DNA from: Limibacillus halophilus
GTDB taxonomy: Bacteria > Pseudomonadota > Alphaproteobacteria > Kiloniellales > CECT-8803
Assembly: GCF_014191775.1 (NCBI RefSeq)
Contig: NZ_JACHXA010000007.1
Coordinates: 1 to 64,000, forward strand
Direction of reading: 5' to 3'
Length of the DNA: 64,000 nt
The notes below the pieces were generated by a model. It worked only from the letters and a program-made list of their open reading frames with translations, was not told where the DNA came from and ran no database searches. This document shows positions 2,266-16,132 of this stretch, in pieces (the first letter of the stretch is position 1; each line of letters begins with the position of its first letter). The position numbers and the translations under genes were made by a program.

Positions 2266-2445
2266 ATGAAAAATCCGTTCCGCTCTTTCAACTCATCGCC
2301 GGAAGTGATCCGCCTGACGGTTATGCTGTATATCCGCTATCGCTCCGCCAGGTGGAGGATATCCAGTTCGACCGTCACATTCCCTCCCGCGAAACCTTCA
2401 AGCAGGACCGCTCGGCCGCTTTGGCGGCGTTCTGGCGGATGTTTA
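2266..2445 (+). pseudogene. IS6-type transposase remnant with internal deletion
   Basis: The frame opens with ATG and MKNPFRSFNSSPEVIRLTVM followed by LYIRY, a typical N terminus of one IS6-like transposase group. After IRY the sequence shifts frame, consistent with loss of a few bases, and continues LRQVEDIQFDRHIPSRETFK and then QDRSAALAAFWRMF, which resembles the C-terminal end of the same kind of protein. The start and end of the gene are thus joined and the DDE core is missing. It runs right up to the stop codon of the convergent aconitase-X gene (TAA at 2443-2445). It lies on the opposite strand to the remnant at 138-273. Confidence 0.65.
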
Positions 2446-4119
2446 CTCCAGCCAAGTCGGCAGGTTGGCTGGCGCCTTGCCGTTTTGGGCTGCACGGGCG
2501 CAGTCCGCAAGGCTGCCAAAGCGCACCTCGCGACCGCAGAGGCCTGGAGCGTAATGAGCGTACTTGCCGGAGTTGGTCATCAAGACGCGCGCTTGCGGCG
2601 GAAAAACGGGTTCAGAGATGGAACACCAGCAAATGTCGGGGATCAATTGAACGCCTGCCTTCTCCAACCGGGCGGCAAGACCTTGATCTCGTGCCGTAGC
2701 AAGGGTCTCCCGACCTAGGGTTATGATCACCGAAACTGCGGGGTGGCGCCGACGGCCCTCCATAAGCGCGGCGAACTTGCGAGTCTCGGCCAAAGAAAAA
2801 TGAGGGCTTCCCAAAGACACGAGATCGACGTCTCCACCACCGGCATTAAATCCCTTCCAGGCGCGGGCGAGATCGGCGCGGGTAATGCGAACACAATCGG
2901 CATCGTCCGTTGCGGGCCGGTTACCCTCGGGAGTGATTCCCGCCACATGAAGCATCGGCGCCGCCGAGGTGGTGCCGAATGCCGCGCAAAGGGCTCTCAG
3001 GTCATCTTCCGACGGCGCGGTGGTTTCCAGGCCCTTCAGGACCGGAATCCTATCGGGTGATAGCTGTCCGGCCAGCCATCCCAGCAGCGGCCACAAGGCA
3101 TCATCGTATCCTGCGGGCAGTTCAACCTCGATCTTGCGGTGCGCTGCCCTGTTCGCTTCCAGATAGACACCGGCGTGCGGCGCCCGCCCGGTCAGAGCGA
3201 TACAGAGGTCCAGGAAATCCGGGTGCTTTGCCGTCCGCGCGCCGAGGACGCTGTTGGCATAGATTACCGCATTCGATTCCGACCAACCGATGGCCTCGCC
3301 TTCCAACGGCCTGTCATCCAAATGGTAGGGTGCGCAGGTGAAGCTCGGCCGTGCGCCCATCTGCACATAAGCGTCGGCCAGCTGACTGGCCGGCAACCCG
3401 AACTCGGGCGGCACCTTCTGGCTCCGCCAATTGACGTAGTCCACCGAGATCGCGTTCATAGTCGTTGGTACGACGACCTTTGCGTTCATCTCCGCCATTG
3501 CGGCGGCGAAACGCAGGTTGGCGGGACTGGCATAAATGCAGCCGTCGATGTGGACACGGGTCACGTCAATCAACCGATCAGCACCCTGCAAGGCAGCCAT
3601 GGCGCACAGTGTCTCCATGGCGAACTTCGCTGCCGGGCCGCGTGCGCCACTCAGGAGGGAGCGATCGCCGGCTGTCAGGTTCAGGTCTGACGCGGACAGA
3701 GGCGCGAGCGGCAAGGATAAACCATCGCCCTCGACGGCGGTTTCGGTAATGCGAAGGTATGGAACCTTGGATAGCGCCTCGTACTCCCGCTCGGGGACTC
3801 GTAAGACCGCCAGGGGGCGCTCGAACATTCTCCCGGCAATCATCGCCCCCAGGGTGAGGATGTCCTCATCCTCCTTGAAGACCAGCGCCGCAGGCGCATT
3901 GCCGTTCAGGGCGAGCTCCAGCAGGACGCCGCTGCCCGTACAGGAGCCGCGGCTGGTAGGCATCAGGACGACACACCCGGTTAGAAGTTGACCGTGTTGG
4001 TCGTGGTGGGCATCGATAACACGGCCTGTTTCCGGATCGACTCCACCCCAGAAACTCAGTCCATCGGAGCAGGTCAAAACCGGGCCTTCGACCGCAGCGG
4101 GAACGATCAGCTGTGCCAT
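2443..4119 (-). CDS. Aconitase X, probable cis-3-hydroxy-L-proline dehydratase
   Basis: A 558-residue fused aconitase-X protein. Residues 1 to about 135 are the swivelling small domain (DUF126), with the signature TSRGSCTGSG at about 55-64. From about 145 onward is the large catalytic domain (DUF521), with HIDGCIYA near 190, FTCAPY near 260, ESNAVIYANSVLGART near 281 and a C-terminal MTNSGKYAHYAPGL stretch. Characterised bacterial members use an Fe-S centre to dehydrate cis-3-hydroxy-L-proline to pyrroline-2-carboxylate; other substrates are possible. The start at 4119 keeps the domain whole and leaves an 88-base gap to the upstream dapA-like gene; the longer frame from 4227 would overlap that gene and adds only non-homologous residues. 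A transposase remnant ends at its stop codon, but the C terminus looks intact. Confidence 0.85.
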   Translation of the reverse strand: MAQLIVPAAVEGPVLTCSDGLSFWGGVDPETGRVIDAHHDQHGQLLTGCVVLMPTSRGSCTGSGVLLELALNGNAPAALVFKEDEDILTLGAMIAGRMFERPLAVLRVPEREYEALSKVPYLRITETAVEGDGLSLPLAPLSASDLNLTAGDRSLLSGARGPAAKFAMETLCAMAALQGADRLIDVTRVHIDGCIYASPANLRFAAAMAEMNAKVVVPTTMNAISVDYVNWRSQKVPPEFGLPASQLADAYVQMGARPSFTCAPYHLDDRPLEGEAIGWSESNAVIYANSVLGARTAKHPDFLDLCIALTGRAPHAGVYLEANRAAHRKIEVELPAGYDDALWPLLGWLAGQLSPDRIPVLKGLETTAPSEDDLRALCAAFGTTSAAPMLHVAGITPEGNRPATDDADCVRITRADLARAWKGFNAGGGDVDLVSLGSPHFSLAETRKFAALMEGRRRHPAVSVIITLGRETLATARDQGLAARLEKAGVQLIPDICWCSISEPVFPPQARVLMTNSGKYAHYAPGLCGREVRFGSLADCARAAQNGKAPANLPTWLE

Positions 4120-4207
4120 GTGGAGTGCCTTGCTTGTCGTCCGCAAGCCAGGTGCGAGCGGGTCGGGTTGGACGCGGACGGGGCTATGACGCCGCCATCG
4201 TGTTTTT

Positions 4208-5140
4208 TCATCTGGCCCAGGCCGCATACCAATCTCTGAACAGGCGGTGCTGCTGCTCCAGATACTTGCGCTGGCTGTCGCTCAGCGCGTCGGTCTCGTT
4301 GAAGTGCGTTGCATAGTTCGCATGACCCTCCAGAACCATGAGGTGCTTATAATAAAGTACCAGATCCGGGCCTTCGTCGAAGGTGGAGAGAACATGCAGT
4401 GCATCGTCCAGTTGACGCGCCTTGACGCGAGCCTCCGGGTCGCCCGCCGCGGCTTTCTCGCTAAGCGCCACCAGGTGCAACACCTCTTTCGGCAAGGCGT
4501 TCCCGACCCCGGTAATCGCGCCCTTTGCGCCGCAATTCACGAAGCCGTGGTAAACCTGGGTATCAACGCCGATCATCAGGATAAGATCGTCGTCCTTCGA
4601 CGTGATGTTCTCGGCCGCGTAGCGCATATCTGCAGCGCCGCCGAATTCCTTGAAGCCCACCATGTTCGAATGTTTGGCGCGCAATTCGAAGAACAGATCG
4701 GCACGCGTAGCAAACCCGTAGTAGGGGCTATTATAAATGATCGCCGGAATCTCCGGGGCCGCGTTCAGGATGCTCTCGAAGTGCGCCCGCTGAGCCGCTA
4801 CCGAGGAGCCCCGCGAGAGGACACGCGGAATCACCATCAGGCCTTGAGCGCCGACACGCGCGGCATGCGCGGCATGAGCCGTGGCGCTGGCCGTGTTGAC
4901 TGCTCCGGTGCCGACGATCGTCGGAATCCCTGCTTCGACGAGGCGGGTCACGCCTTCTTGGCGCTGACTGTCGGTCAGCAGCGGCCAGTCGCCCATCGAC
5001 CCGCAATAGACCACCGCAGACATGCCCTCGGCGATCAGCTCCCGTCCCCGTTGGACAAGGGCGTCAAAATCGGGGCTGCGATCTGCGTTGCAGGGGGTCA
5101 TCAACGCTGGAATGCAGCCCGTGAAAATCTTGTTGTCCAT
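4208..5140 (-). CDS. DapA/NanA-type (dihydrodipicolinate synthase family) lyase
   Basis: A 310-residue class I aldolase-fold protein of the DHDPS/N-acetylneuraminate lyase family. The catalytic tyrosine lies in IIYNSPYYG (about 136) and the Schiff-base lysine in VGFKEFGG (about 164). The usual GTTGE phosphate-loop region reads GSMGD, so it is unlikely to be housekeeping DapA. The ATG at 5140 has AGAGGA upstream; a GTG lies one codon earlier. It reads leftward just ahead of aconitase X. Some family members deaminate 1-pyrroline-4-hydroxy-2-carboxylate in hydroxyproline catabolism, which would fit the neighbour, but that is inference; a keto-acid aldolase role is equally possible. Confidence 0.8.
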   Translation of the reverse strand: MDNKIFTGCIPALMTPCNADRSPDFDALVQRGRELIAEGMSAVVYCGSMGDWPLLTDSQRQEGVTRLVEAGIPTIVGTGAVNTASATAHAAHAARVGAQGLMVIPRVLSRGSSVAAQRAHFESILNAAPEIPAIIYNSPYYGFATRADLFFELRAKHSNMVGFKEFGGAADMRYAAENITSKDDDLILMIGVDTQVYHGFVNCGAKGAITGVGNALPKEVLHLVALSEKAAAGDPEARVKARQLDDALHVLSTFDEGPDLVLYYKHLMVLEGHANYATHFNETDALSDSQRKYLEQQHRLFRDWYAAWAR

Positions 5141-5236
5141 CACGTAGTCCTCTTTTGCTAACTTTGTTTTCAGCGATACGCGCCGCTGCCATTAATCTGC
5201 CTGCTGCCCGCAAGCCCGAGGTGTCGCGCGGGCGTT

Positions 5237-5892: not shown

Positions 5893-7590
5893 TCACTTCA
5901 GGATCGCTGGCAGGTTCAACTTGTGCTCACGCGCGCAATCGATGGCGATGTCATAACCTGCGTCGGCATGGCGCATGACCCCAGTGGCGGGGTCGTTCCA
6001 CAAAACGTTGCCGATGCGCCGGTCGGCGTCCTCGCTGCCGTCGCAACAGATCACCATGCCCGAGTGTTGGCTAAATCCCATGCCGACGCCGCCGCCATGA
6101 TGCAGGCTGACCCAGGTCGCGCCGCTTGCGCAGTTGAGAAGAGCGTTGAGCAGCGGCCAGTCCGAAACCGCATCGGAGCCGTCCTTCATGGCTTCGGTTT
6201 CTCGGTTGGGCGAGGCCACGGAACCCGAATCCAGATGGTCGCGGCCGATTACGACAGGTGCCTTCAGTTCGCCCTTGCGCACCATTTCGTTGAAGGCCAG
6301 TCCGGCGCGGTGCCGGTCGCCGAGCCCAATCCAACAGATGCGCGCCGGCAGGCCTTGGAAGGCAATCCTTTCGCGCGCCATGTCGAGCCAGTTGTGCAGG
6401 TGGCCGTTGTCGGGAAACAGCTCCTTCATCTTCGCATCGGTTTTGTAAATGTCCTCGGGGTCGCCGGAAAGCGCACACCAGCGGAAGGGCCCGATGCCTT
6501 TGCAAAACAAAGGCCGGATGTAAGCCGGGACAAACCCCGGGAAGGCAAAGGCATTCTCCAAGCCTTCTTCCTTGGCCACCTGACGGATGTTGTTGCCGTA
6601 GTCGAGTGTCGGCACGCCGGCGCTCCAGAAATCCACCATTGCAGCGACGTGCGCCTTCATGCTGGCGCGGGCGGCCTTCTCAACACTCTTGGGGTCGCTT
6701 TCCTGCTTGGCGCGCCATTCCGAAACGCTCCAACCCAAAGGCAGGTATCCATGGACCGGGTCGTGGGCGCTGGTTTGATCGGTGACGATATCTGGGCGTC
6801 CATTGGGGACCGAAGCATCGCCTGTCTTCATGCGGCGGACGAGTTCCGGAAAGATCTCGGCGGCGTTTCCAATGAGGGCCACCGACTTCGCCTCGCCTTT
6901 GGCAGTCCAGTCCGCGATCATCGACAGGGCTGCGTCGAGGTCTTGCGCCTTGGCGTCGCAGTAGCGGGTGCGGATGCGGAAATCGGCCCGTGTTTCGTCA
7001 CACTCGACGGCCAGACAGCAAGCCCCTGCCATGACCGCGGCCAGGGGTTGCGCTCCCCCCATGCCGCCAAGGCCCGCAGTCAGAATCCATTTGCCTGTCA
7101 GGTCACCGTCGTAGTGCTGACGACCAGCTTCGGCGAAGGTCTCGTAAGTGCCCTGCACGATACCTTGGGTGCCGATGTAGATCCACGATCCGGCGGTCAT
7201 CTGGCCGTACATGGCCAGTCCCTTCTTATCCAACTCGTTGAAATGCTCCCAGGTTGCCCAATGCGGGACCAGGTTCGAGTTGGCGATCAACACGCGCGGC
7301 GCATCCTTGTGCGTGCGGAACACGCCGACAGGCTTGCCCGACTGCACGAGCAGGGTCTCGGTATCCTCCAGGTCCCGCAAGCAAGCGACGATCTGGTCGA
7401 AGTCGTCCCATGTGCGCGCCGCACGGCCGATGCCGCCGTAGACCACCAGCTCGTGCGGATTCTCCGCAACATCGGGATGTAGGTTGTTCATCAGCATCCG
7501 AAGGGGCGCTTCCGTCAGCCAACTTTTTGCGGTGATCTCGGTTCCGGTTGCGGGAAAGATGTCGCGGACGTTGTGGCGAGGGTTGGTCAT
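5893..7590 (-). CDS. hutU: Urocanate hydratase
   Basis: A 565-residue cytosolic NAD-dependent urocanase, the second step of histidine breakdown (urocanate to imidazolone-propionate). The length and motifs match the family throughout: [48 protein letters not shown], the dinucleotide-binding [28 protein letters not shown] with the active-site cysteine region, and [17 protein letters not shown] near the end. The ATG is preceded by CGGAGGACAGC. It follows hutH by 85 bases on the same strand, so the two are very probably co-transcribed and under HutC control. It is intact, unlike the ABC ATPase remnant after it. Confidence 0.97.
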
Positions 7591-7675: not shown

Positions 7676-9205
7676 TCATCCCCCAAGCTCCGGCAAACTG
7701 AGGTCGTGGGTGAGGCGACCGTCGGCGATCATCGCCGCAGCGCTGGCGATATCATCGGCCAAGTAGCGGTCTTCGGTAACGCGAGGCGCTTCGCTGCGCA
7801 GTCGCCCCATCACGCCCTGGAGCGTGGTGCTGGTGTTCAGCGGCGCGCGAAACTCGATGCCTTGAGCGGCGCACATGGCCTCCACGCCAAGAATGACGTT
7901 CAGGTTGGCGTTCATCCGGTGCAGCCGCCGGGCGGCATGGGCGGCCATGCTGACGTGATCTTCCTGGTTGGCCGAGGTCGGGGTGGAATCGGTGGAGCAG
8001 GCGTGGGCTAGGTGCTTGTTCTCGCTCATCAGCGCCGCCGTCGTCACTTCGGCAATCATCAGACCCGAGTTGAGCCCCGGATCGGGTGTTAGAAACGGCG
8101 GCAGGTCGAAGCTGAGCGTCGGGTCCACCATCAAGGCGACGCGGCGCTGCGCAATAGCACCGATCTCGGCCACCGCCAGCGCGATCTGGTCGGCCGCGAA
8201 AGCGACGGGTTCGGCATGAAAATTGCCGCCGGAGACGATCAGCCCTTCCTCAACGAGGACCAGTGGATTGTCGGTCACGGCATTGGCCTCGACCTCCAGC
8301 GTCCGGCCTGCGAAACGCAATAGGTCGATCGCAGCACCCGTTACCTGCGGTTGGCAGCGGATGCAGTAGGGGTCCTGGACCCGGGTATCGCCTTCCCGGT
8401 GGCTTTCGCGAATCTCACTACCCGCCATCAAGGCCGTTTGCGCGCGGGCCACGTCGATCTGGCCCGGATGACCTCGTAACGTGTGGATCGCATCCACCAA
8501 CGGAGCGGTGGAGCCCATGATGGCGTCGGTGGATAGAGCCGCCGTGACGACTGAGGCGCGGGCGTTGGCCCAGGCGCCGAACAGGCCAACGAGCGCGCAG
8601 GCCGTCGAAAACTGGGTGCCGTTGATAAGTGCCAAACCTTCCTTCGGTCCGAGCACGATAGGCGACAGTCCGGCGCGCTTCAGGGCCTCTGCGGCCAGGA
8701 GCTCCTCGCCGTCATGGGTTGCCCGGCCTTCACCCAGCATGGCCGCAGCCATGTGCGCCAGCGGCGCCAGATCGCCGGAGGCGCCAACCGAACCTTGATC
8801 GGGGACAACGGGCATGACCCCTGCGGCCAGCATATCCTCCAGCAAGCGAACCGTCTCCCAAGCCACGCCCGAAGCGCCGCGTCCCAGGCTGAGGAGCTTC
8901 AGCGCCATCATCAGCCGTGTCGTCGCCTGGTCGAGCGCTTGGCCCACACCGCAGCAGTGACTGAGAATCAAATTGCGTTGCAGCTTCGCCGTGTCCTTTG
9001 CCGCGATCTTGACGCTGGCAAGCTTGCCGAAGCCGGTGTTCACGCCATAGATAGCGGCATCGCCTGCCGCCGCGTCACGGACCAACTTGGCAGCGGCCTC
9101 AATGCCTGCGCGGGCCGATTCATCGAGCCGTATGGGGCCTGTCCCACGCCAGATCGCCTCCAGCGTCTCCAGTGTCGCCTGACCGGGCACGAGCGTGAGC
9201 GTCAT
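7676..9205 (-). CDS. hutH: Histidine ammonia-lyase (canonical copy)
   Basis: A 509-residue cytosolic lyase that deaminates L-histidine to urocanate. Numbering from ATG 9205 (GGAGG seven bases upstream) gives Tyr53 in [10 protein letters not shown], His83 in LSHCCGVG and the MIO-forming Ala142-Ser143-Gly144 in [14 protein letters not shown], the same positions as in the Pseudomonas enzyme. The C-terminal half holds [14 protein letters not shown] and [10 protein letters not shown], typical of true HAL. It lies downstream of hutC and upstream of hutU. A second lyase of the same family lies at 11262-12785 with a different MIO triad; this copy is the orthodox one. Confidence 0.96.
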
Positions 9206-9382
9206 GTGGTTCCTCCAAAACACGGGCTATGGAGCAGGTCGTGTTAACCAGGTTCCATAGCGCTGGTCACAGCGCAGACCGAAGATGCGGTTCGTGGTCA
9301 AAGTGACTGAGGCATTCCTCAGCCGATCTTAGCCTTTGCTCGGCGAAAGAAAACAAGGCCATATTATTTGATCTTTTGTGTT

Positions 9383-9459: not shown

Positions 9460-10152
9460 TCAGTAGCGGGTGGTCATGCGATATCCGCGCTGATGGACAA
9501 GCCGTACGTAGGTAACCGCGCTTTCCCTCCACCAGGTCGAGCGCTCGACCTGCATCAGAGGATCCCCGATCGCACAGCCAAGGTTGTCGGCTAGCGCAGT
9601 GTCTGCAGCCGTGGCCGAGAAACTTATCTCGACGTCCGAAAAAGGAATCGTGGCAACCAGCCACTCGTTTGGCCCGACTTTGGAGAAATCGACCGTGCGT
9701 GCTTGGGGCAAGGCGGAGAGATTGATCCAGCGATCCTCGACTTGGTAGGGATTGCCGTCAGCGAAGTGCAAACAAACCAGGTGCCGGACCTTTGCCTTTG
9801 GGTCGAGCCGCATCCGCGCACGCAACCAGTCTGCCGCGGCAACAACCTCGGACTGGACGAGGGCATAGCGGTAGGTTGAGCCCTGCTCTTCGATCTGCTG
9901 TCGTACAATCGGGATATCGAACTTCGCTTGCCGCAGAGGCGACAATCGAACCCGGGTGCCAGCCTTGCGTTTACGCTCGATCAGACCGTCCTCGGCCAGT
10001 TCACGCATGGCTCGGTTCACCGTGGCGCGCGCCGCGCCGTAGTGTTCCGCCAAATCCGACTCGTTGGGAACCAGGCTTCCCGGCTTCCATTCGCCTTGCG
10101 TGATTCGACGCAGAATATCGGCCTTTATTTCGCGATAGGTCCCTGCCGTCAT
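9460..10152 (-). CDS. hutC: Histidine utilization repressor, GntR family HutC
   Basis: A 230-residue regulator with an N-terminal GntR winged helix (YREIKADILRRITQGEWKPG, LAEHYGAARATVNRAMRELA, GLIERKRKAGTRV, about residues 5-70). A C-terminal UTRA ligand domain follows (VCLHFADGNPYQVEDRWINL, ending LVHQRGYRMTTRY). HutC proteins repress hut genes and are released by urocanate. The ATG at 10152 is preferred for its GGAG six to nine bases upstream; a longer frame from 10191 adds 13 residues without a better site. It is divergent from hutD and first of the leftward hut genes. Confidence 0.9.
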   Translation of the reverse strand: MTAGTYREIKADILRRITQGEWKPGSLVPNESDLAEHYGAARATVNRAMRELAEDGLIERKRKAGTRVRLSPLRQAKFDIPIVRQQIEEQGSTYRYALVQSEVVAAADWLRARMRLDPKAKVRHLVCLHFADGNPYQVEDRWINLSALPQARTVDFSKVGPNEWLVATIPFSDVEISFSATAADTALADNLGCAIGDPLMQVERSTWWRESAVTYVRLVHQRGYRMTTRY

Positions 10153-10264
10153 CCGTCTCTCCACCTTGGTCACAGACAGTGAAACAGCCAAGTTTTTCTT
10201 CTCGCTTTCGGTCTGCCTCTACGGTTCGGCCCATATGTTGAGTGACAGCCTTACACGATAAAAT

Positions 10265-10273: not shown

Positions 10274-10366
10274 GCTAAGCTAAGTCCAGACAATACAAAC
10301 CGTGTGGACGTTTCCCCGCCGCTTATGGCCTAATCGGTGCGTTAATTGGCGTACAGGGGCGCAAGC

Positions 10367-10933
10367 ATGCAACTTCTCCGGTTTGCGAGCTATCGCAGGA
10401 TGCCTTGGAAAAACGGTGGTGGCATAACGCGTGAGATAGCAGCCTTTCCAGAGGGTGCCGACCTAGCCGATTTCGAATGGCGGATCAGCATGGCGGACGT
10501 AGCCAGTGACGGACCTTTCTCGCGCTTCGAGGGAGTGGATCGGACCTTATGTGTTCTTGAAGGTTCGATTGAGTTGACCCTTCAAGGCGGCAAGGCCGTG
10601 GTGCTTGATCCAAACTCCGCCCCGCTTGGCTTCCCGGCGGATGAGGATGTCGTCGCTCGGCTTCCAGGCGGCCCCGTCAGGGACTTCAATGTCATGACGA
10701 GGCGCAAGGCTGCTAAACACCGGGTCGAGTCCTTGGAGATTAATGGTAAAACCGTGCTGAACCGGGAAGCAAAGACATTAGCGATTGTCTGTGCATCCGG
10801 AACCGTTGCGCTGAGCGGCAGTGGTGGAGAAGCAAATCTGGAGGCGTTGGATTGCCTGCTGTTTGATCGCGATAGCGTAGATTCAGTTCATGCCGAAGGG
10901 CGCGGTAAACTCATTGTAGCCAGGATTCTATAG
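10367..10933 (+). CDS. hutD: HutD/Ves family protein
   Basis: A 188-residue cupin-fold protein of the HutD family. The family opening is clear: MQLLRFASYRRMPWKNGGGI, then TREIAAFPEG and the SMADVASDGPFSRFEGVDRT core. HutD is thought to moderate hut expression in Pseudomonas; no catalysis is established. The ATG at 10367 has AGGGGC upstream; the frame could open seven codons earlier at a TTG without a reason to do so. It is divergent from hutC. Confidence 0.88.
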   Translation: MQLLRFASYRRMPWKNGGGITREIAAFPEGADLADFEWRISMADVASDGPFSRFEGVDRTLCVLEGSIELTLQGGKAVVLDPNSAPLGFPADEDVVARLPGGPVRDFNVMTRRKAAKHRVESLEINGKTVLNREAKTLAIVCASGTVALSGSGGEANLEALDCLLFDRDSVDSVHAEGRGKLIVARIL

Positions 10934-11261: not shown

Positions 11262-12785
11262 ATGATCGTGCTGGACGGTGAGCATCTAACAATTGGCGAT
11301 GTGGTCGCCATCGCTCGGAAAGGGGACCAATTGGCCCTAGCCGCAAGCGCGGCGGAGAAGGTCCGCGCGGGCGCCGACTATTTGACCGATCTGGTCGCCC
11401 AGGGACATCCCATCTACGGTCTGACGACCGGCTTTGGGGCGCTTGACGGCTTTGCCGTCGGGCCGGACAAGGTGCGTAACCTTCAGCACAATCTATTGCG
11501 CAGCCATGCCGCCGGCGTTGGGCGGCCGATGGAGCCCGAGGCGGTTCGCGCAATGATGGCAATCCGGGTCAATGTTTTGGGAACCGGTTTGACCGGAATC
11601 TCCCCTGAAACCCTGGATGCTCTGATAGCGATGGTGAACGCCGGTATCGTGCCGTTGGTGCCCGAGCGTGGCTCGGTCGGCGCCTGCGGCGATCTTGCAC
11701 CGCTTGCGCATATGGCTCTGCCGCTGATTGGCGAGGGGCGGGCGCGTCTTGGTAGCGGCGACTTCGAGGCGGCCAAGGGCGTGATGGCGCGGGCGGGCAT
11801 CCCTTTACCGACGGTCGCTGGCCGCGACGGCATCGCGTTGATCAACGGCACGGAGCAGACGACGGGCATTGGTTGCTTGGCCGCCTATGACGCTGGACGG
11901 CTGATCCAAGTAGCGGAAGCCGTTGCGGCGCTCTCGTTGGAAGCGTTAGGGGCGGTTGCCGATAGCTTTGACGAGCGGGTTGCCTTGGCCAAGCCCCACC
12001 CGGGCCAGATTGCCACTTCAAGCCGTTTACGTGCGTTGACGGACGGTTCCAAAGCGGTCCTGCCGCCGCGCCCCGAACGGATGCGCGATGCGCTGAGTCT
12101 GCGCTGCATCCCTCAAGTCCTTGGCGCGACACGGGATGCGCTCGCCCATTGCTGGCGGACGCTTGAAATCGAGATCAATGCCGCCAATGACAACCCGCTG
12201 TTTGGGGTGGCCGATGGCTTCGTCACCTCCAACTCCGGGAACTTCCATGGCCAGGCGGCGGCGGAGGTGCTCGACTATTTGGCCAATGCGGTAACGTCCG
12301 CCGCGGCGATTTCGGAACGTCGTGCCGCGCGGCTTGTCGATCCGCACCACAATGGCGGCCTTCCGGCCTTTCTGATTCATCCAGACTCAGCGCCGGGCGA
12401 AAACTCTGGGTTCATGATCGCCCAATACACGGCGGCATCGCTGATTGCTGAGATGAGGATGCGAGCCGTACCCGCGGCAATTCAGACCATCCCGACGTGC
12501 GCAAACACCGAGGACCATGTGCCGATGGCGCCGCTTGCGGCGCGCCGGGTTGCCTTTGTGGTTTCCACGGCATTCGACGTGGTGGCGATCGAAGCATTGC
12601 TGGCGGCGCAGGCCTGCGATATCCGTGGCTTGAAGCCCGCGCCTCTGTTGCAACCGCTTTACCAGGCAGTTCGCGATGTGGTGCCGACAATGCTTCGCGA
12701 CCGTCTCATGGCCGAGGATATAACTGCGGTACGAAAAGCCCTGCGTGATAGCGGCGTTGCCGGTCCAGATTGGACGTCACACTGA
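11262..12785 (+). CDS. Aromatic amino acid/histidine ammonia-lyase paralogue with Ala-Cys-Gly triad
   Basis: A 507-residue member of the MIO lyase family. Aligned with HAL it keeps Tyr52 (IYGLTTGFG), His82 (LLRSHAAGVG) and the long helical bundle. The residues that cyclise to the MIO cofactor read Ala141-Cys142-Gly143 ([14 protein letters not shown]; codon TGC at 11685-11687) instead of Ala-Ser-Gly. The HAL stretch SENK is replaced by AEMRMRA, while ANTEDHVPM keeps the Glu-Asp-His core. The product is probably an alpha,beta-unsaturated acid plus ammonia, but the amino acid substrate cannot be read. It is followed after 120 bases by a TRAP transporter on the same strand, which may import its substrate. 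Confidence 0.88.
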   Translation: MIVLDGEHLTIGDVVAIARKGDQLALAASAAEKVRAGADYLTDLVAQGHPIYGLTTGFGALDGFAVGPDKVRNLQHNLLRSHAAGVGRPMEPEAVRAMMAIRVNVLGTGLTGISPETLDALIAMVNAGIVPLVPERGSVGACGDLAPLAHMALPLIGEGRARLGSGDFEAAKGVMARAGIPLPTVAGRDGIALINGTEQTTGIGCLAAYDAGRLIQVAEAVAALSLEALGAVADSFDERVALAKPHPGQIATSSRLRALTDGSKAVLPPRPERMRDALSLRCIPQVLGATRDALAHCWRTLEIEINAANDNPLFGVADGFVTSNSGNFHGQAAAEVLDYLANAVTSAAAISERRAARLVDPHHNGGLPAFLIHPDSAPGENSGFMIAQYTAASLIAEMRMRAVPAAIQTIPTCANTEDHVPMAPLAARRVAFVVSTAFDVVAIEALLAAQACDIRGLKPAPLLQPLYQAVRDVVPTMLRDRLMAEDITAVRKALRDSGVAGPDWTSH

Positions 12786-12905: not shown

Positions 12906-14006
12906 ATGACGACGACAAGACGTAAGTTTCTGGCTGGCGCCGGTGTTGCCGGTGCTGCGGCAGCATCGGCAACCTTCCCCATGCCTGCGATCGCGCAAGG
13001 CAAGATGCAGTGGAAAATGGTAACGGCTTGGCCGAAGAACCTGCCGGGTCCAGGTGTTGCCGCCCAAATGCTTGCTGATCGCATCACCACGCTTTCCAGC
13101 GGGCGTATCGAGGTTAAGCTTTTCGCCGCCGGAGAACTGGTCCCGGGGCGGGGTGTCTTTGACGCCGTCTCCGAAGGGACCGCTGAGCTTTATCACGCGG
13201 TTCCTGCTTACTGGGGGTCTAAGTCCAAGGGTATTGAGCTTTTCGGATCCCAACCCTTCGGTCTGCGCGCCGACGAGCAGTTTGGTTGGATGGCCCACGG
13301 CGGCGGGCAGGCGCTTTACGACGAGATGTACGCACGCTTCAACCTCAAGCCGTTCCTTTGCGGCAATTCCGGACCGCAGTGGCAGGGTTGGTTCCGCAAG
13401 GAGATCAACTCGGTCGATGACCTGAAGGGCTTGAAGTTCCGTACGGCCGGTCTGGCTTCAGACATGTATGCCAGAATCGGCATGGCGGTGCAGGCCATGG
13501 GCGGCCGCGACATGTTCCAGGCTCTGCAGTCGGGCGCGCTGGATGCCGGCGAGTTCATTGGGCCTTGGTCGGATAGCGCACTCGGTTTCTATCAGATCGC
13601 CAAATACTACTATTGGCCGGGCGTCGGCGAGCCGTCTTCGGCGGAGGAATGCGGCATCAACATGAAGGTTTACAATGATTTGCCGGATGATCTGAAGGGT
13701 GCGGTCGGCTTTGCCTGTGAAAGCCTCTACAACCCGGTTTGGACCGAGTACACGACGAAGCACGCTTTGGCGCTTCAGCAGCTTGTCGCCGAGCAGGGCG
13801 TGCAGGTTCGTAAACTGCCGGATGACGTCATTGTCGCGTTGGGCAATGCCGCAGGCGAAGTGATGGCGGAACTGCGAGAGGACAATGACGAGCTGGTTAA
13901 GCGCATCATGGAAAGCTTCCTCGCTTATCGCGCATCGATCAGCGAGTACATGACCTATGCCGACAATGGGCAGATGAACGCCCGTGCGTTGAACTACAAG
14001 TACTAA
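12906..14006 (+). CDS. dctP: TRAP transporter solute-binding protein, DctP/TakP type
   Basis: A 366-residue periplasmic binding protein. It opens with a twin-arginine type signal (TTTRRKFLAGAGVAG... PAIAQ, cleaved near residue 30). The mature start KMQWKMVTAWPKNLPGPG is typical of the TakP (2-oxo acid binding) branch. The later LKGLKFRTAGLASDMYARIG holds the Arg that usually grips the ligand carboxylate. GTG 12903 precedes ATG 12906; AGGGAG upstream favours the ATG. With dctQ and dctM it forms a complete secondary uptake system driven by a sodium or proton gradient. The upstream ammonia-lyase suggests an amino acid, urocanate-like or oxo-acid ligand; this is inference. Confidence 0.93.
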   Translation: MTTTRRKFLAGAGVAGAAAASATFPMPAIAQGKMQWKMVTAWPKNLPGPGVAAQMLADRITTLSSGRIEVKLFAAGELVPGRGVFDAVSEGTAELYHAVPAYWGSKSKGIELFGSQPFGLRADEQFGWMAHGGGQALYDEMYARFNLKPFLCGNSGPQWQGWFRKEINSVDDLKGLKFRTAGLASDMYARIGMAVQAMGGRDMFQALQSGALDAGEFIGPWSDSALGFYQIAKYYYWPGVGEPSSAEECGINMKVYNDLPDDLKGAVGFACESLYNPVWTEYTTKHALALQQLVAEQGVQVRKLPDDVIVALGNAAGEVMAELREDNDELVKRIMESFLAYRASISEYMTYADNGQMNARALNYKY

Positions 14007-14081: not shown

Positions 14082-14585
14082 GTGAACAGAACCGCAGACA
14101 GGCTCGACATGGTCAATCGCCTCGTTGGCAGCATCGTCCGATGGGCAGCCCTTATCATGGTGCTGACGCAGTTTGCGATCGTGCTGCTACGTTATGTTTT
14201 CAGCATCAGTTTTGTCGCGGTCAACGAGAGCGTGCTTTACCTGCATTCCGCGTTGTTCATGTTGGGTGCGGGATATACCTTGCTGGTCGATGGGCATGTC
14301 AGAGTCGACATTTTTTACGCCAAAGCAAACGCACGCTGGCAAGCGGCGATCGATCTGTTCGGGCACGTCTTTCTCCTGATACCGTCGATGTCGTTGCTGC
14401 TCTACTGGTCCTGGCCGTCGGTGCGCAATGCCTGGGCGATCCTGGAGGGTCCAATTTCGGTTGGGGGTATACCGGCTTCCTTCTTGTTGAAATCACTGAT
14501 ACCGGCTTTTTGCGTACTCCTGTTAATCCAGTCACTGGCCTGTCTGATGCGCAATATAGCGCGTCTGCAAGAGAGACAATCTTGA
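14082..14585 (+). CDS. dctQ: TRAP transporter small membrane subunit
   Basis: A 167-residue inner-membrane protein with four predicted helices (ALIMVLTQFAIVLLRYVF, NESVLYLHSALFMLGAGYTL, LFGHVFLLIPSMSLLLYW, LKSLIPAFCVLLLIQSLACL). VDGHVRVDIFYAK between helices two and three is the DctQ family signature. The GTG at 14082 has a GGGGAGGGG run just before it. Its TGA overlaps the TTG start of dctM by three bases (TTGA), so the two are translationally coupled. Confidence 0.9.
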   Translation: MNRTADRLDMVNRLVGSIVRWAALIMVLTQFAIVLLRYVFSISFVAVNESVLYLHSALFMLGAGYTLLVDGHVRVDIFYAKANARWQAAIDLFGHVFLLIPSMSLLLYWSWPSVRNAWAILEGPISVGGIPASFLLKSLIPAFCVLLLIQSLACLMRNIARLQERQS

Positions 14586-16132
14586 CCCTACCTCTTGATC
14601 TCATGATGTTTGCGGCGCTGATCGCCTGCATACTTCTCGGCTTTCCGGTTTCTTTCAGCATAGCGGGGGTGGCAACGCTCTTCGCTGTTCTCGGCTGGGT
14701 TTTCGGGGTAATGGACATCTCCTTGCTAGGCGCTTTGGGTCAGCGCGTCTTCGGATTGCTTACCAACACAGTTTTGATCGCCATACCGCTATTTGTTCTG
14801 ATGGGCGTGATCCTCCAACAAAGCCATATAGCCGAGGATCTCTTGGAGACCATGGGCCGGTTGTTCGGCCGACTGCGCGGCGGGCTGGGCGTGTCCGTGG
14901 TGCTCGTCGGGGCCTTGTTGGCAGCGTCTACAGGGATCGTGGGAGCGACCGTCATTGCAATGGGGATGATTGCGTTGCCAACCATGCTGCGCAATCGCTA
15001 CAACCCGGAGCTGGCGTCTGGCATCGTTTGCACGGCGGGTACCCTTGGCCAGATCATCCCGCCGTCAACGCTTCTGATCATCTTGTCCGACGTGATGTCC
15101 AATGCCTACCAGCAGGCGCAGTTCGCACAAGGTAAGTTCACTGTCGAGACCATTTCGGTAGGGCAGATTTTCGCCGGTGCTTTGCTGCCTGGCTTGACCC
15201 TTGTGGTGATCTACATTCTCTACGTTTTAGGGCGCGCATGGCTTTTGCCCAACGATGCGCCGGCGGCGGTGCAACTGGATGACAAGCCATCGGCTTTGGA
15301 GGTCGCTATCGCCGTCCTGCCGCCGGTACTGCTGATTGTTGCAGTGCTAGGCGCGATTCTTGGTGGCGTGGCGACGCCCACCGAGGCCGCTTCGGTCGGG
15401 GCTATCGGAGCACTTTTAATGGCCGGACATAGGCTGGGCGCCAAACCTTGGTTGATATTGGCGGGGGCAGGAAGCTTATTGTTACTGGGCATTGTGTCGG
15501 GTCTGGCGCCCGTACATCTGCAGCGAAGCGATGCAGGGACCTCGGATTGGGTGCAAGGCGGCCTCTATGCAATGTTGGCTCTGCTTGGGATGGTGGCCAT
15601 CGTGGCGGCCTTGAAGCGCGCCTGGACCGCCGACATTCTTAAGCCTGCTCTGACATCGACGATGACCGTTACCTCGATGATCTTTGCAACCATTCTGACC
15701 GCCAGCATGTTCTCGCTGGTCTTTGTCGGATTAGGGGGCGAGGCGCGCATCGAGCAAATTTTGACCGCCATGCCGGGCGGCGCCACCGGCGCCCTGATTT
15801 TTTGCATGGCCCTTATTTTCGTCCTGGGCTTCTTCTTGGATTTTGTTGAGATCACGGTCATCGTGCTGCCGCTGATTGCACCGATGCTGATTCTGATGGG
15901 GCATGACCCCATATGGTTGGCGATCCTGATCGCGATCAATTTGCAGACATCGTTCCTGACGCCGCCCTTTGGCTTCTCGCTCTTCTATCTTCGAGGCGCG
16001 GCCCCGCCGGAGATAACGACAGGGCAGATCTATGCGGGGGTCGCGCCGTTTATTCTGCTGCAAATCGTTGGTGTCGCCATTATTTGGATGATTCCGGCCA
16101 TCCCCACCTGGCTCCCTTCTATCGTGTTCTGA
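14582..16132 (+). CDS. dctM: TRAP transporter large membrane subunit
   Basis: A 516-residue membrane protein that carries the transport path. It is longer than the usual ~430-residue DctM because of an extra hydrophobic block of about 80 residues in the middle (from MAGHRLGAKPWLILAGAGS to ADILKPALTSTMTV), as in the TakM/DctM_2 subgroup. The family motifs GQIIPPSTLLIIL and ATPTEAASVGAIGALL are present, and it ends NLQTSFLTPPFGFSLFYLRG. The start is taken as the TTG overlapping the dctQ stop; ATG 14603, seven codons in, is the alternative. The frame is open further left but only as a shadow of dctQ. Confidence 0.92.
   Translation: MTLPLDLMMFAALIACILLGFPVSFSIAGVATLFAVLGWVFGVMDISLLGALGQRVFGLLTNTVLIAIPLFVLMGVILQQSHIAEDLLETMGRLFGRLRGGLGVSVVLVGALLAASTGIVGATVIAMGMIALPTMLRNRYNPELASGIVCTAGTLGQIIPPSTLLIILSDVMSNAYQQAQFAQGKFTVETISVGQIFAGALLPGLTLVVIYILYVLGRAWLLPNDAPAAVQLDDKPSALEVAIAVLPPVLLIVAVLGAILGGVATPTEAASVGAIGALLMAGHRLGAKPWLILAGAGSLLLLGIVSGLAPVHLQRSDAGTSDWVQGGLYAMLALLGMVAIVAALKRAWTADILKPALTSTMTVTSMIFATILTASMFSLVFVGLGGEARIEQILTAMPGGATGALIFCMALIFVLGFFLDFVEITVIVLPLIAPMLILMGHDPIWLAILIAINLQTSFLTPPFGFSLFYLRGAAPPEITTGQIYAGVAPFILLQIVGVAIIWMIPAIPTWLPSIVF

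Follow-up and report, generated by a model that had tools for sequence, protein, structure and literature searches.

Formation of the MIO cofactor has so far been treated as Ala-Ser-Gly chemistry, and a Ser143Cys mutant of Pseudomonas HAL is said to be still able to mature. In histidine ammonia-lyase (HAL, HutH, EC 4.3.1.3), where several subunits together form the active site, we take Tyr53 to be the base, His83 and Glu414 to lie on the ring side of the substrate, and Asn195 and Arg283 on its carboxylate side. For GkHAL, the variants Y52F, H82L, N194D and E411D are reported to be inactive, Q274N to have reduced activity and Y277F to have failed in expression or purification (PMC11432326). A second described relative is ergothionase, which works without MIO (PMC13405746) and has trimethylamine as its product (PMC13405746; PMC7653990). 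The terms ACG, ASG, Ala-Ser-Gly, cysteine, motif and 'ergothion' are all absent from a paper on MIO enzyme evolution (PMC9002059), and the titles and abstracts of the open full-text literature searched held nothing on a natural Ala-Cys-Gly triad. Nor did any title or abstract in the open literature, queried by names other than imidazolelactate, describe a lyase that turns hercynine or imidazolelactate into urocanate. Among TRAP receptors, TakP holds pyruvate and sodium via Arg177, Tyr100, Gln156, Glu214, Glu240 and the Trp215 carbonyl, and its authors expected TakP to be a poor binder of charged or polar ligands (PMC1839085).

A HAL-like gene with an Ala-Cys-Gly triad

The gene lies at positions 11262-12785 (plus strand) of the window, as we call the whole 64,000-nt stretch of Limibacillus halophilus DNA that was analyzed. 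Its reading frame is intact and encodes a 507-AA protein (P0001), whose match to PF00221 (538.8 bits vs. a gathering score of 27.3) makes it a member of that family. In the phmmer alignment, Cys142 falls on the MIO residue Ser143 of P. putida HAL (1gkj), with Ala141 on Ala142 and Gly143 on Gly144. The three residues are encoded by GCC TGC GGC at 11682-11690 (plus strand), the cysteine codon TGC occupying 11685-11687. The codons and the alignment thus bear out the initial annotation, in which an Ala-Cys-Gly triad had been described at these positions in a HAL paralogue; the neighboring hutH with Ala-Ser-Gly that it had noted is also there, at 7676-9223 on the minus strand and 2.0 kb away (TIGR01225, 659.5 bits, over the cut-off). 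By protein similarity, without use of the Cys motif, orthologues 63-72% identical to P0001 were found in 11 other genomes, drawn from 385 genomes of the class (which gave five others), 31 of the order of genome G373 and 18 of the order of G261. All 11 carry Ala-Cys-Gly, so the cysteine is no artifact of the pattern scan described below, and together with the intact frame they rule out a sequencing error or a pseudogene.

P0001 scored below the cut-off of the NCBIfam HAL equivalog TIGR01225 (531.5 vs. 539.15 bits) and above that of the subfamily model PRK09367.1 (543 vs. 524 bits). The second score favors, and the first disfavors, an ordinary HAL isozyme, i.e. an enzyme with L-histidine as substrate, a Cys that is converted to MIO, and other changes that merely tune activity. 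P0001 also missed the equivalog cut-offs of the tyrosine/phenylalanine lyase and aminomutase models (384.2 vs. 501, 340.8 vs. 800, 301.8 vs. 700 and 225.4 vs. 519.15 bits), which argues against a lyase or aminomutase whose substrate is some other aromatic or a beta amino acid and to which the hut neighborhood would be incidental. PF00221 does include TAL, PAL and aminomutases, and on the tyrosine aminomutase model, with its cut-off of 501, P0001 scored higher than the window HutH (384 vs. 326 bits); the retention of His83 and Glu414 and the recurrence of hut linkage across several genera nevertheless leave such an activity quite improbable.

The SENK stretch of HAL reads AEMR in P0001. Its absence, reported in the initial annotation as a difference in the substrate loops, is thus real, but SENK is not the site of the catalytic Glu: HAL Glu414, located in NQEDHV, is kept as Glu417. 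The view that a protein without SENK is not a histidine enzyme was dismissed, as the catalytic Glu is located elsewhere and retained. Of the residues by which HAL can be recognized, P0001 has Tyr53, His83 (the SH dyad), Asn195, Arg283, Phe329 and Glu414, and lacks the Ala-Ser-Gly triad, Tyr280 and Gln277. As a name we suggest 'HAL-like lyase, ACG-Arg-Leu clade', with its function regarded as putative.

Cysteine at the MIO position in other genomes

An exact back-translated 10-residue protein pattern was scanned over one genome per species (84,980 species) and gave 102 Ala-Cys-Gly loci, which, being selected by the Cys pattern, give no frequency of Ser. Cys at this position is therefore no rarity. 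Nineteen loci belong to the clade of the window protein, 77 keep HAL Tyr280 and six are cut fragments that were left unclassed; Tyr280 was the sole criterion for the 77, among which are about ten members of a second odd ACG group. Cys as a clade mark is thereby ruled out, the true mark being Arg277 with Leu280, and Ala-Cys-Gly alone does not exclude HAL. The other ACG-bearing PF00221 proteins (from Aliidiomarina, Planctomycetota, Bdellovibrionota and others) have the triad in common with the clade but keep Gln277 and Tyr280, and hut genes were found in 34 of their 77 blocks.

For a count of PF00221 genes, 24 of the 77 Tyr280-keeping loci were taken, 22 of which lay in searchable genomes, some of them draft MAGs. 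For 13 of these 22 genomes the Cys protein was the sole PF00221 match, and eight of the 13 carry HutU in the block (up to 8 kb) that holds it. Because the Cys protein is the only family member found in so many genomes, a natural Cys at this site probably allows both a working enzyme and histidine breakdown in nature. The Ser/Cys exchange also recurs in HutH-type proteins, a point in favor of an ordinary HAL isozyme: in these Cys-biased samples the fewest changes were six on a FastTree tree of all kept rows and seven among the HutH-type rows of a quick IQ-TREE tree (104 rows, triad masked).

The second ACG group (L018, L047, L048, L060, L072, L081, L011, L045 and L021, from Bacillota, Martelella and a Desulfobacteraceae MAG) has the loop YGFNTGVGKL and carries Pro (eight loci) or Gly (one) in place of HAL Met382. 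No hut genes were found in its blocks. The genome of L048 (G867, Dethiosulfatibacter aminovorans) has 14 PF00221 matches in 4 Mb, several of them fragmentary and on one contig.

Active-site residues of the clade and the comparison with ergothionase

The clade (20 non-redundant rows) forms one side of a branch with an SH-aLRT of 100 (quick IQ-TREE, LG+G4, 104 rows, triad masked), and its proteins are about 60-72% identical to the window protein. Its distribution is patchy. Among 61 genomes of the window's own order (E 1e-100) no orthologue was found beyond the window's own; a phylum-wide draw of 398 genomes gave, besides the window, only two matches, which are 41-44% identical and group with HutH; and none of the 700 matching records of a plasmid search reached 60% identity. 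No assays of clade members were found.

The 23 clade rows count the window gene twice and represent 22 distinct genes. In all 22, HAL positions 143, 277, 280 and 198 are occupied by Cys, Arg, Leu and Glu, respectively; Tyr53, His83, Asp145, Asn195, Arg283, Phe329 and Glu414 are retained, and A-C-G-D is intact. In P0001 the clade-specific Glu198 (HAL Gln198) is encoded at 11853-11855 and Arg275-Asp-Ala-Leu278 (HAL Gln277 to Tyr280, with Arg and Leu clade-specific) at 12084-12095, both on the plus strand. Further changes of the clade, seen against a HutH set selected for Gln277 and Tyr280, are Gln413 to Thr or Ser, Ser410 to Cys (22 of 23 rows), Ser418 to Pro and Asp405 to Gln. Among the comparison rows whose residue 143 is Ser or Cys, a set not selected in that way, Gln277 occurs in 100 of 100 and Tyr280 in 99 of 100. 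This set counts the window HutH twice (L002 and winHutH), comes mostly from the ACG-pattern loci and the clade genomes, and excludes two further rows unreadable at 277/280. The single exception at 280 is the crystal sequence 1gkj, a crystallized mutant with Phe; 1gkm, the same enzyme, has Tyr.

The clade thus resembles HAL in its PF00221 membership, in positions Tyr53, His83, Asn195, Arg283, Phe329 and Glu414 and in its hut company, but differs at positions 143 (Cys), 280 (Leu), 277 (Arg) and 198 (Glu). The loss of Tyr280 and the gain of Arg at 277 are more telling changes than the Cys itself. By analogy with HAL, the changed residues presumably sit around the C2 leaving group; the pocket would then be kept on its ring, carboxylate and base sides and rebuilt on the leaving-group side, by Ser143 to Cys, Tyr280 to Leu, Gln277 to Arg and Gln198 to Glu. 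The kept His83, Arg283 and Glu414 would also suit an ordinary HAL isozyme. As two residues important in HAL, according to the GkHAL study (PMC11432326), are lost, a catalytically dead or regulatory paralogue was also considered. It is very improbable, given that none of the 22 genes has lost Tyr53, His83, Asn195, Arg283, Glu414 or the triad, at about 60-72% identity.

Ergothionase of T. denticola (6s7j) is like the clade in belonging to PF00221, in its Leu at HAL 280 and in positions Tyr53, His83, Arg283 and Glu414; unlike the clade, it has a shortened triad, no MIO and Ser for Asn195, and keeps Gln277. The triad is of full length in P0001 and short in 6s7j and in L190-L193. In the phylum-wide draw, thiourocanate hydratase was found above the NCBIfam cut-off in five of 398 genomes, and in four of the five a PF00221 gene lies about 4-5 kb from it; all four of these have Leu280, and their triads lack one residue, while the stretch examined in the fifth genome gave no PF00221 match. 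Of four other ergothionase-like proteins of putative function, L162, L187 and L188 carry Leu at HAL 280 and L189 carries Ile, and the triad is short in every case. Elsewhere among the sequences compared, Leu280 occurs only in such MIO-less ergothionase-like proteins, which is a regularity of these sequences and no published definition. In every sequence compared, the crystal mutant apart, loss of Tyr280 accompanies a non-canonical triad, and the clade is the only Tyr280-lacking group among them with a full-length A-X-G-D. Two distant PF00221 proteins (L163:5557-6984 and L164:235-1716) have GGAGE in place of the MIO triad and Val at HAL 280, and L187:7989-10512, on plasmid CP081100.1, is a MIO-less PF00221 lyase beside an annotated ornithine cyclodeaminase family gene.

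Because A-C-G-D is intact in 22 genes, whereas the triad is lost in those ergothionase-like proteins that were examined, Cys142 probably still forms MIO; it is predicted to cyclize with loss of H2S where Ser loses water. Alternatively, Cys142 might act as a free catalytic thiol. As a thiolate leaves more easily than hydroxide, one may guess that the Cys helps MIO to mature where Tyr280 is missing.

The context of the two groups differs as well: the ergothionase homologues (four linked by context) lie near thiourocanate hydratase, and the clade near urocanate hydratase. Four of the HutU proteins next to the clade genes were scanned; by score, these and the one in the window are urocanate hydratases, and they fall short of the cut-offs for thiourocanate and S-methyl-thiourocanate hydratase, with 663 to 721 bits vs. 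the 930 bits set for the former. In the window genome no thiourocanate hydratase match was found at the set limit. Ergothioneine as substrate is disfavored by these HutU scores and by the intact triad.

An enzyme acting in the manner of ergothionase on a desulfurized substrate, either hercynine (Nalpha-trimethylhistidine) or mono- or dimethylhistidine, would give (tri)methylamine and urocanate. It would account for the Leu280 that the clade has in common with T. denticola ergothionase, with the four PF00221 genes near thiourocanate hydratase and, one Ile apart, with the four other ergothionase-like proteins, and the adjacent HutU would accept its urocanate. Flavoproteins of the OYE/FadH family, which also includes trimethylamine dehydrogenase, adjoin the gene in L155 and belong to its gene run in L142 and L147; the two scanned missed all NCBIfam cut-offs. 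A quaternary amine, however, needs no MIO, yet A-C-G-D is kept in 22 of 22 genes, whereas the triad is one residue short in the ergothionase-like proteins examined. The additional Arg at 277 would be odd for a trimethylammonium group, and the TakP-like receptor encoded downstream would be ill-suited to a betaine. We therefore consider this substrate class unlikely.

Gene neighborhood, transporter and candidate substrate

On the minus strand of the window, HutU is encoded at 5893-7590 (TIGR01228, 935.6 bits; the only match in the genome) and the HutC repressor at 9460-10191 (TIGR02018, 279.5 bits, over the cut-off), on either side of hutH. A Ves/HutD-like small protein is encoded at 10346-10933 on the plus strand (PRK11396, 71.5 bits, under the cut-off). 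The window HutH is duplicated: 7676-9239 is 98.1% identical at the nucleotide level over 1565 bases to a copy on contig C1 of the same genome assembly (G000; L178:7576-9139), which is accompanied by hutF, hutI and hutG, with no hutU within the 17 kb read. Adjoining the hut genes, 2443-5143 encodes a cis-3-hydroxy-L-proline dehydratase (NF051439, 917 bits, over the cut-off), next to which lies a DapA-like protein that does not reach its own cut-off.

Neighborhoods were compared in 21 loci, comprising 3.4-20 kb around the gene in 20 genomes plus the 64-kb window, with neighbor genes called by a home-made gene caller and several named by eye. HutU was found in 13 of the 21 and a TakP-like DctP in 10, at least one of the two being present in 18; L152, L158 and L160 have neither HutU nor a TakP-like TRAP system in the stretch. 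Three loci (L146, L156 and L157) show the gene run hutI-hutH-hutG-hutU-ACG-dctPQM-hutC. The sole HutU of six genomes (G207, G441, G429, G261, G443 and G445) lies at most 0.8 kb from the ACG gene, and their HutH lies elsewhere, with no HutU in its stretch. Across the 21 genomes, one complete HutU was counted in 17, two in G453 and split or partial genes in G442, G444 and G447. Between HutU and the ACG gene, L148 has a CoA-transferase and an acyl-CoA dehydrogenase, named by eye (L148:531-2787), perhaps another feeder into urocanate.

In L143 and L144 the ACG gene stands in an apparent operon with HutU and HutC, as an ordinary HAL isozyme might. Against such an isozyme stands the Ala-Ser-Gly HutH, with Gln277 and Tyr280, in 18 of the 20 clade genomes besides the window's. 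All 20 have a further PF00221 match, which is a contig-end piece in G454 and a distant MIO-less protein in G448, where no Ala-Ser-Gly HutH was found. Taking these counts with the profile scores, we regard plain histidine deamination by an isozyme as improbable.

Downstream of the gene, the plus strand of the window encodes the TRAP solute receptor DctP (12906-14006), the small permease DctQ (14082-14585), homologues of which lie beside DctP in other clade loci, and the large permease DctM (14582-16132, start uncertain; TIGR00786, 261.8 bits vs. a cut-off of 268.45). A search for other ACG members beside DctPQM, as the initial annotation had advised, found dct genes in 8 of 19 clade loci vs. 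0 of 77 other ACG loci (blocks up to 8 kb). Other transporters occur as well: L145 and L161 have genes resembling a branched-chain-type ABC system near the ACG gene, L142 and L147 a distant other TRAP system on the opposite strand (DctM 26% identical), and L160 an SsuA-type ABC receptor that scores below the cut-off.

Among proteins of solved structure, TakP is the nearest relative of DctP (2hzk, E 3.1e-67). Every side-chain contact of TakP to pyruvate and sodium is kept in the window DctP, and in the clade receptors Arg177, Tyr100, Gln156 and Glu214 are found in 10 of 10 and Glu240 in eight of nine readable (Ser in L148). The cavity, by contrast, is changed, with Tyr99 to Ala (9 of 10), Val245 to Glu (9 of 9), Pro243 to Ser (9 of 9) and Ile47 to Pro (10 of 10); the window DctP has all four, plus Thr153 to Ser. 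Phe215 and Trp40 (Phe40 in TakP) are present in 10 of 10 clade receptors and also in the keto-acid receptor 7ug8, and are thus no clade marks. These features suggest as ligand a 2-oxo or 2-hydroxy acid whose side chain is larger and either polar or cationic, e.g. imidazolelactate or imidazolepyruvate. Against this, the kept contacts may be family inheritance, and poor binding of polar ligands is what the authors of the TakP study expect of TakP itself.

The initial annotation had proposed a separate amino acid deamination route linked to the TRAP transporter. A distinct route tied to the TRAP system finds support, but a substrate that is simply another amino acid is unsupported, in view of the histidine-type residues, the HutU in 13 of 21 loci and the 2-oxo-acid site of DctP. 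From these same three observations we infer that a histidine relative feeds urocanate. We give a probability of roughly 40% to the following reading as a whole: the ACG lyase is a HutH paralogue and no replacement for HutH, and gives the hut pathway a second lyase that forms urocanate; its substrate would be an imported relative of histidine without a free alpha-ammonium group, most likely imidazolelactate. DctPQM would import the imidazole-bearing acid, the lyase would take off its C2 substituent and a C3 proton to give urocanate, and HutU with the remaining hut enzymes would carry this to glutamate. The broader claim, a urocanate-forming paralogue for a substrate other than plain L-histidine, seems rather probable. 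Imidazolelactate, from which water would be the leaving group, can be named as the specific substrate only tentatively; it is favored by the receptor, and its main rival, an Nalpha-methylated histidine, by the Leu280 common to ergothionase. Against the reading as a whole, TakP-like TRAP genes are missing from 11 of 21 loci, and a class-IV aminotransferase, named by eye beyond hutC on the opposite strand in L146, L156 and L157, would also permit a route through histidine.

A bolder form, a MIO-fold dehydratase that takes water off imported imidazolelactate to give urocanate, with Cys142 either a free thiol or the source of a MIO whose maturation would make up for the lost Tyr280, is speculative and on balance doubtful. 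We know of no member of the superfamily with a non-nitrogen leaving group, so such a dehydratase would be the first. Nor is a 2-hydroxy acid a known substrate of any enzyme with the MIO fold, which counts against imidazolelactate. If real, it would be a direct entry into the hut pathway that bypasses histidine.

In nature, the clade uncouples the MIO triad from Tyr280, its partner. With 102 natural Ala-Cys-Gly loci, some of them in genomes where no other PF00221 gene was found, the Ser/Cys question can be put to the test without recourse to mutants. The hut and TRAP neighborhood of the clade suggests a substrate other than histidine; since the NCBIfam subfamily model would label such proteins histidine ammonia-lyase, that name may hide a pathway step.
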